DNA from: Aliarcobacter cryaerophilus
GTDB taxonomy: Bacteria; Campylobacterota; Campylobacteria; Campylobacterales; Arcobacteraceae
Assembly: GCF_014352935.1 (NCBI RefSeq)
Contig: NZ_CP060694.1
Coordinates: 1,798,001-1,862,000 of the forward strand
Direction: 5' to 3'
Length of the DNA: 64,000 bases
A program made the position numbers and the translations under genes. Below, piece after piece: positions 27,445 to 28,911 of the stretch; within the stretch, counting starts at the first letter, position 1, and each line of letters begins with the position of its first letter. The notes under the pieces are model-generated. The model ran no database searches. It was not told the origin of the DNA and saw nothing but the letters and a program-made list of their open reading frames with translations.

Positions 27445-27798
27445 TTAATATGTTAAAACTCTCTTTGCACTTATTGTCCACTCTCCCAACAAATCCAAAC
27501 TTCCTCTTATCTCTTCATTTAAATATGGTTCATTTTTATAATCACCAGACCTTTTAAGACTTGTTCCACAAGCTTTTATCTGCACACCTAAAGTCAAAAT
27601 CTCTTTTATCATAGCTTGTAAATCTATATCATAACTATCAGGTTTTTTTGCAATTGCACGCACCAAATCTACAGCATCACTAATACAAAAAATTTTTACT
27701 TCTTGCTTCATCTCTACTAATTTTTTAACCAATCTCAAAGCACCATAAATGTTATCACTTCCATCATATGGTTTCGTACTTAAAATAAATAGCGTCAT
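27445..27798 (-). CDS. DsrE-family small sulfur-carrier-like protein
   Basis: 117 residues starting TLFILSTKPYDGSDNIYGAL, followed by KIFCISDAVDL and VQIKACGTSLKR. This layout is the DsrE/TusD fold, in which a Cys in the xxxACGT region can carry sulfur. Ribosome site AAAGGAG. It lies 10 bases after the FmdE-like gene and should be cotranscribed. No other dsr genes are present, so the partner and role are open. Confidence 0.75.
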   Translation of the reverse strand: MTLFILSTKPYDGSDNIYGALRLVKKLVEMKQEVKIFCISDAVDLVRAIAKKPDSYDIDLQAMIKEILTLGVQIKACGTSLKRSGDYKNEPYLNEEIRGSLDLLGEWTISAKRVLTY

Positions 27799-27808
27799 AA
27801 AAGCTCCT

Positions 27809-28396
27809 TTATATAAATTTTATAACTTCATCTTTATATTTTAATAAAATCTCACTAACTCTTTTTTGCCAAGCAGAGCCAAAAATTTCAAGCTCCTCTT
27901 TTGTAGCAATTTTTTGTAAACCTTTTTGCATCAAATTTCCATCAAAACCACTCAAAGATATATTTGACAAATCATACATAACTTCAACTTTTTCTTGATT
28001 ATCAAGCCTTGTAAATCTCATATCACCTTTTATAGGTGCTTCATATTTAAGTAGATTATTTCTAAAGTATTGCCCTTGAAGTCCTTTAAATCCATCTTCC
28101 TCTTTTGCTCCTGTTATAAATGAAGCTACATTTGCTAAAACTCCAGTTGTTCCAGAACTTTTTGAATCTCTTAGCTCAACTCTTATTTCACCACGAACTG
28201 GTAACTCATCTTTGTATAACTCTTTTAAAGCTTTTATAGTCATAAGATAAGCTCCAGCAACTGTTGGACACGAATGACCGCTTAATTTTACAACATCTTG
28301 AAAAGTATATACAAAATCATCATCAACACCAAGGAATCTTCCTAATTTATCTTTTAAAATAATTGTTTCAACATCTTGAAAAAAATCTATATTCAT
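27809..28396 (-). CDS. FmdE-like domain protein
   Basis: 195 residues. LSGHSCPTVAGAYLMTIKAL resembles the zinc/metal-binding start of the FmdE family (formylmethanofuran dehydrogenase subunit E-like), named from methanogen molybdenum operons but common in anaerobes with unknown roles. No signal peptide or membrane segment. The start has AAGG upstream. The 5' region contains an FNR-type box and a long hairpin 40-150 bases away, so it may be oxygen-regulated. Function unknown. Confidence 0.65.
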   Translation of the reverse strand: MNIDFFQDVETIILKDKLGRFLGVDDDFVYTFQDVVKLSGHSCPTVAGAYLMTIKALKELYKDELPVRGEIRVELRDSKSSGTTGVLANVASFITGAKEEDGFKGLQGQYFRNNLLKYEAPIKGDMRFTRLDNQEKVEVMYDLSNISLSGFDGNLMQKGLQKIATKEELEIFGSAWQKRVSEILLKYKDEVIKFI

Positions 28397-28433: not shown

Positions 28434-28506
28434 ACAAAAATTGTACGGTGGACTTATTAGGAGAGATTTAGGGGCAAGTCCACTCGTACAAGCTCTATGT
28501 TAGAGT
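28434..28506 (-). ncRNA. candidate small RNA or leader attenuator with two hairpins
   Basis: Read on the minus strand, a predicted start near 28506 (7 bases after the TAGAAT -10 box) gives an RNA of about 73 bases. Hairpin 1 is CUCUA-ACA-UAGAG (28505-28493). Hairpin 2 has an outer 7-bp arm (UUGUACG/CGUACAA, 28441-28447 and 28485-28491), an inner 8-bp arm (GUGGACUU/AAGUCCAC) and a 20-base loop (28456-28475), followed at once by five U. The loop is C/U-rich and holds CUCUCCUAA. It could be a free sRNA or the terminator of a leader for the FmdE-like gene 38 bases further on. No known RNA family recognised. Confidence 0.5.
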
Positions 28507-28512
28507 AAAGAA

Positions 28513-28518
28513 ATTCTA
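28513..28518 (-). promoter_or_regulatory. -10 box upstream of the candidate sRNA
   Basis: TAGAAT on the minus strand. Its distance from the FNR-type palindrome (centre 28547.5) places that palindrome at about -41.5 from the predicted start, the usual class II activator position. Confidence 0.5.
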
Positions 28519-28540
28519 ATATATTATTTAGACTCTTTTG

Positions 28541-28554
28541 TTGATTTATATCAA
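28541..28554 (-). promoter_or_regulatory. perfect FNR/CRP-type binding palindrome
   Basis: TTGAT-N4-ATCAA with no mismatch (TTGATTTATATCAA on the plus strand), 3 bases past the acpS stop. FNR-family proteins bind this consensus and activate from -41.5 when oxygen is low. Confidence 0.6.
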
Positions 28555-28557
28555 ACT

Positions 28558-28911
28558 TTATTTTTTTAAACTATTTACTACAACTGCTATTGCAAAACCA
28601 CCATCATGTGTGATACTTATATTTGATTTTTTAATTTTAAATCTTTTTTTTAATTTTTTACTATATTTAATCTTTGGAGCATTGTTCTTATCTTTTTTAA
28701 TTTTTATATCATAAAATGAACAAATCTCTCCAATTCCAGTACCAATAGCTTTACTAGCAGCCTCTTTTGCAGCCCAAAAACCAGCTGCATTTTGAGGAGA
28801 TTTTATAAACTCTTTTTCATCTTCACACAAAAATCTATCATAAAATTTATCACCAAACTTTTCATGCATCTTTTTTATTCTATCTATGCTAACTATATCT
28901 ATACCTATCAT
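28558..28911 (-). CDS. acpS: holo-[acyl-carrier-protein] synthase
   Basis: Transfers phosphopantetheine from CoA to apo-ACP. 117 residues, normal length. MIGIDIVSIDRIKK gives the Mg-binding Asp, FWAAKEAASKAIGTG the second metal/CoA site, and SITHDGGFAIAVVV the C-terminal strand. AGGA lies just before the ATG. It is divergent from the permease gene with only 29 bases between starts. Confidence 0.95.
   Translation of the reverse strand: MIGIDIVSIDRIKKMHEKFGDKFYDRFLCEDEKEFIKSPQNAAGFWAAKEAASKAIGTGIGEICSFYDIKIKKDKNNAPKIKYSKKLKKRFKIKKSNISITHDGGFAIAVVVNSLKK

Follow-up and report, generated by a model that had tools for sequence, protein, structure and literature searches.

Intergenic DNA between acpS and an fmdE-like gene of Aliarcobacter raises three questions: whether it encodes a regulatory RNA, which signal switches that RNA on, and whether the product acts on the adjoining gene or on messages elsewhere. 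We analysed a stretch of 64,000 nt (the window) belonging to G000, a genome of 2.02 Mb from an Aliarcobacter closely related to A. cryaerophilus; the window fmdE is 93% identical to its homologue in A. cryaerophilus gv. crypticus LMG 9065.

A predicted promoter and hairpin RNA in the acpS-fmdE spacer

A preliminary description of the spacer had proposed an FNR-type class II promoter driving a short structured RNA, and all of its coordinates proved correct (Table 1). The spacer contains a perfect TTGAT-N4-ATCAA box (ttgatttatatcaa) centred on 28547.5 which, counted from the A predicted as the transcription start, lies at -41.5. The palindrome alone proves nothing, because the genome has no excess of perfect boxes (13 sites, versus 16 for the reversed control pattern), and it was rejected as evidence on its own.

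The minus-strand RNA, ACUCUAACAUAGAGCUUGUACGAGUGGACUUGCCCCUAAAUCUCUCCUAAUAAGUCCACCGUACAAUUUUUG, extends from about 28506 to five U residues. Its fold energy is -24 kcal/mol compared with -9.0 for shuffled sequences (z = -6.4; 0 of 200 shuffles). With the RNA ending at the U-run, the fold consists of hairpin 1 followed by a 7+8-bp stem that carries a 20-nt loop and a single bulged A. When extra 3' sequence is included, the AGAG arm of hairpin 1 pairs downstream of the U-run instead, and this hairpin is therefore considered marginal.

Table 1. Positions of the predicted RNA, its promoter and neighbouring genes in the window, and of related sites elsewhere
Feature	Position	Strand	Evidence or remark
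Predicted RNA, ~71 nt	28436..28506	-	Fold z = -6.4; covariance models; no Rfam match
FNR/Crp-type operator TTGATATAAATCAA	28541..28554	-	Sequence; centre 28547.5 = -41.5; in 11/11 orthologous spacers
Box-to-(-10) spacer, 22 bp	28519..28540	-	Length invariant, 22 bp in 11/11
-10 hexamer TAGAAT (relatives: TARAMT)	28513..28518	-	Sequence and comparison
Hairpin 1, CUCUA-ACA-UAGAG, marginal, 4-5 bp	28493..28505	-	Fold; CUCU/AGAG in all but L010
Main stem, 5' arm UUGUACG-(A)-GUGGACUU	28476..28491	-	Covariation
20-nt loop GCCCCUAAAUCUCUCCUAAU, C/U-rich, putative seed complementary to purine-rich RBS	28456..28475	-	Near-invariant, stem varies
Main stem, 3' arm AAGUCCAC-CGUACAA	28441..28455	-	Covariation
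U5 tract, candidate intrinsic terminator	28436..28440	-	T-score 4.6 in window
acpS, upstream neighbour	28558..28911	-	Pfam ACPS 3e-18
FmdE-like gene, 40 nt downstream of RNA	27809..28396	-	Pfam FmdE 1.5e-4, slightly under curated cut-off
DsrE-like gene after fmdE	27445..27798	-	Detected in only 5/10 RNA-bearing fmdE loci
Candidate Crp/Fnr regulon sites	G000:C1 1410844, 303041, 276336, 1105682, 1993126, 35283 (L105, L099, L098, L102, L109, L096)		Box-22bp-TANNNT
g2 RNA	L076 about 1230-1440; L077 (reverse complement) about 1230-1440; L047, L050	+ (L076)	

Conservation and covariation across the genus

A DNA search recovered orthologous spacers from ten further genomes of the genus (L002-L011), making 11 with the window. 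The box, exactly 22 bp and a TARAMT -10 element follow one another in 11/11, and the 22-bp spacer itself has a mean pairwise identity of only 0.49 among diverged members. Conservation of the palindrome, which had been suggested as a check, is thus seen in every orthologous spacer, and the proposed class II promoter stands, with its start as a prediction. In an alignment that was fitted to the covariance model, 10 of the 14 modelled pairs of the main stem have compensatory changes; these amount to 29 cells, 94.4% of all cells are paired, and none of 500 shuffles attained as high a covariation score. An initial MAFFT alignment, with seven sequences, had already displayed such changes at 7 of the 14 pairs. 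The short structured RNA is accordingly borne out by fold and covariation together. Compensatory changes had been sought in both stems; the main stem has them, whereas hairpin 1 shows none among the orthologues, its CUCU/AGAG arms being nearly invariant around a loop of 3-8 nt.

The main loop, GCCCCURAAUCUCUCCUAA, is almost fixed while the stem bases change between species, and it is conserved as two blocks (CCCC and UCUCCUAA) with variable spacing between them. A variable stem bearing a fixed loop is the signature of a presented seed and not of a terminator, and the combination of box, 22-bp spacing, -10 element and covarying hairpin in 11 species-level genomes is far beyond chance. A U-tract after the stem is not conserved among these genomes, being weak or absent in three of them (T-scores of 1.3 in L007, 1.3 in L011 and 0.6 in L008); scores of 0.56-3.1 were obtained across more distant relatives, and random AT-rich sequence gives a median of 1.3 and a 95th percentile of 3.4. 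In L011 the stem runs straight into the fmdE ribosome-binding site (RBS), with neither U-tract nor terminator between.

Two other interpretations of the spacer were rejected. For a leader peptide (UUG...CCC-UAA), assessed by eye, the reading frame is intact in several species and interrupted in L002, L008 and L010, and there is no RBS. A transcript from the plus strand would have no U-tract on its side, and the sole G-U pair (in L007) fits the minus strand.

Distribution and novelty

With covariance models R1/R2, 11 of the 31 genus genomes gave a single strong hit apiece, always behind acpS. No further convincing copies were found in 104 family genomes nor, when the model was broadened and the filters relaxed, in the 31 genus genomes. 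Three weak matches (L041-L043, E about 0.04-0.1) were rejected for want of box and hairpin context, and a further weak match occurs in G021 (E 0.015). Rfam, including its FnrS family, returned nothing at the gathering threshold for the window nor at E<=1 for the loci, and no regulatory RNA of Arcobacter or Aliarcobacter was found in the literature searched. These searches agree with the earlier remark that no RNA of this form had been described, and the hairpin apparently represents a new RNA family. In 10 of the 11 RNA-bearing genomes fmdE lies directly downstream. The remaining one, G027 (99% complete), retains the box, the RNA and a U-rich tail, the fmdE gene is absent from the genome, and the next gene after the RNA is a convergent ruvX-type gene.

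Candidate regulators and regulon

Two Crp/Fnr-type regulators are encoded in the genome, one at 53.9 kb and the other adjoining nap. Both retain an ExxSR recognition helix, which we take to be the type expected for TTGAT sites, as in FNR. Each possesses a single cysteine and no CxxC motif and so, on the basis of its sequence, cannot carry the [4Fe-4S] cluster of FNR; the Crp/Fnr homologues of those genus-mates whose proteins were checked likewise lack the FNR cysteines. The oxygen-responsive FNR of the preliminary description thus finds no support, and a 2019 review knows of no ortholog of FNR among the Campylobacterota (PMC6682613).

In the host genome, the same box-22bp-TANNNT arrangement is also present upstream of nor genes, napA, Rieske petA and genes for a small cytochrome c, a hemerythrin and a chemoreceptor (names read from sequence rather than from a family scan), although the arrangement itself shows no excess over its reversed control. 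Because this candidate regulon includes nap and nor, and because the regulators lack the Fe-S cysteines, nitrate, NO or redox state is a likelier signal than direct oxygen sensing. Because the promoter, the covarying stem and the fixed loop rich in C and U all persist across species, the hairpin very probably functions as a genuine regulatory RNA that is switched on with the genes of nitrate/nitric-oxide respiration. A conserved RNA wired to the nap/nor Crp/Fnr regulon would offer a concrete and testable way to study how respiration is controlled post-transcriptionally in Aliarcobacter, an emerging food-borne group.

Proposed mode of action

The reading we favour, with a probability of roughly 0.55, is that of a Crp/Fnr-activated sRNA whose loop pairs with ribosome-binding sites in trans, combined with fmdE read-through wherever fmdE adjoins. 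The architecture places a Crp/Fnr-family activator at -41.5, from where it would turn on the ~71-nt RNA along with the nitrate/NO respiration genes. The strong stem would then present at its tip an anti-Shine-Dalgarno-like loop (CCCC...UCUCCUAA), which is complementary to UUAGGAGA and AGGGG. By base-pairing with purine-rich ribosome-binding sites, the loop would repress translation without Hfq, in the manner of CJnc190 and RepG. Where fmdE lies directly behind, the transcript probably reads through, and the fmdE message would then begin with the RNA. A trans-acting sRNA is favoured by the retention of the RNA in one species that lacks fmdE and by the lack of U-tract conservation. The weak U-tracts of L007, L008 and L011, together with the L011 stem that leads into the fmdE RBS, indicate that the RNA is probably also an fmdE leader in several species. 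The preliminary description had offered an sRNA or an fmdE leader as alternatives; G027 speaks against a pure attenuator and L011 against a purely stand-alone sRNA in that genome.

It is possible, if doubtful, that the hairpin acts solely in cis, in the leader of fmdE(-dsrE). As a 5'UTR element or an attenuator it would control read-through, stability or translation of the operon, and its conserved loop would be recognized by a protein or by another RNA. The RNA does precede fmdE closely in the window, and in L011 it is joined to the RBS as described above. The distribution of FmdE subtypes, of which Aliarcobacter has two (window 27809-28396 and homologues L066-L095), points the same way. The FmdE proteins of RNA-bearing species and genus g2 fall into a single clade with a support of 1.0, and the remaining sampled genomes, among them one genus-mate in the tree that lacks the RNA, have a different FmdE type. 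In further genus-mates without the RNA, FmdE is only 46-50% identical to that of the window, and all 10 RNA-bearing genomes with fmdE share the same subtype. That the window FmdE groups with g2 rather than with the genus-mate in the tree suggests transfer of the locus, and co-inheritance of the subtype with the RNA locus suggests a cis link, which counts against a trans-acting sRNA. Furthermore, another box-driven RNA precedes fmdE in g2, and fmdE has a box of its own in g2, g33 and g35 relatives. The second box in g2, however, makes the upstream RNA there a separate unit, the RNA persists in G027 where there is no fmdE to lead (the only such genome), and inspection by eye revealed neither a conserved alternative anti-terminator helix nor pairing to the fmdE RBS. 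A more ambitious proposal, which we regard as speculative and on the whole unlikely, is a dual function in which the RNA is both fmdE leader and a trans-acting anti-Shine-Dalgarno sRNA repressing many mRNAs during nitrate/NO respiration; if true, this would take place in a phylum without FNR and, in the species studied, without Hfq.

A protein-binding or sponge RNA, whose C/U-rich loop engages an RNA-binding protein or a ribosomal component instead of mRNA, would account for the two fixed loop blocks with variable spacing and for the lack of an outstanding target in the TTAGGAGA search. We consider it improbable given that the transcribed strand displays no CsrA-type GGA loop and that C/U loops of related bacteria pair with mRNA (PMC8687705). 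The hairpin followed by U5 could also be an ordinary acpS intrinsic terminator or an untranscribed repeat beside a coincidental FNR-like palindrome, as the chance-level frequency of perfect boxes would allow. The invariant box and spacing in 11/11, the fixed 20-nt loop, the retention of the stem even where the U-tract is lost and, for a repeat, the single copy per genome make this explanation very unlikely.

For the favoured trans-acting sRNA, candidate targets were sought by searching six genomes with the RNA and four without it for TTAGGAGA-N-ATG (G027, G012 and G009 partly covered). Start regions with this motif recur in the RNA-bearing genomes at genes for a porin, an NnrS-like membrane protein, a ccoQ-like protein, a DUF485 protein and prpF. 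The search gave many Shine-Dalgarno-type matches, none of them specific to RNA-bearing genomes: the RNA-less relatives carry the same motif, which is consequently regarded as an ordinary Shine-Dalgarno sequence, and these five were rejected and no target is claimed.

Two conserved upstream regions are recorded separately. A gene of unknown function (MSLSNDYFLLYHGI...; L136, L214, L269, L247, L256, L322) is preceded by a conserved TATTTAACTTTTTTTATTTAGGAGA that, among the recurrent matches, best complements the RNA loop, but its core is also present in the RNA-less G006. A major-porin-like gene (L116, L216, L303, L251, L173, L361, L395) has a strongly conserved 5'UTR in which the palindrome TTTCGAAA is followed by TTTTAGGAGA, and this occurs across the genus in RNA-bearing and RNA-less genomes alike.

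Comparison with known small RNAs

Hfq is absent in Campylobacter jejuni and Helicobacter pylori, and CJnc190 and RepG use their C/U-rich loops to pair with G-rich RBS or 5'UTR sequences, needing neither Hfq nor ProQ (PMC8687705, PMC8322730). CJnc190 of C. jejuni is described there as pairing to the G-rich ptmG RBS and repressing translation (PMC8687705). Like it, the Aliarcobacter RNA is a Campylobacterota stem-loop presenting a conserved C/U-rich loop. CJnc190 differs in being processed by RNase III from antisense pairs with CJnc180, the accessible part of its report mentions no Crp/Fnr box, and no homology or synteny between the two RNAs is known. H. pylori RepG likewise has a C/U-rich loop, and it works without Hfq or ProQ (PMC8322730, PMC8687705); it targets a phase-variable G-repeat upstream of tlpB, and no such target was found here. 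The stem and loop variants that occur naturally in Aliarcobacter provide a series for studying Hfq-free sRNAs.

FnrS is under true FNR control, has another sequence and structure, and is Hfq-dependent in enterics. In Enterobacteriaceae and in its gonococcal form it resembles the Aliarcobacter RNA as a small RNA made from a class II site at -41.5 (PMC3032703), whereas the Aliarcobacter regulators have no 4Fe-4S ligands. PaiI of Pseudomonas aeruginosa is comparable as an anaerobically induced sRNA tied to denitrification (PMC5703892); it requires the NarXL two-component system rather than a Crp/Fnr box and is confined to Pseudomonas.

A different box-driven RNA in genus g2

In genus g2 (L047/L076, L050, L077), fmdE is preceded by a different RNA behind a box, 22 bp and TAATAT, and has its own second box. 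This RNA has a long closing stem and a conserved CAACAACACCUCCUUUGU, close to the 16S rRNA 3' end. From a comparison of only two independent sequences, it looks like a second RNA with an anti-Shine-Dalgarno element at the equivalent place and, if unrelated, it would represent a convergent solution in another Arcobacter-family genus.
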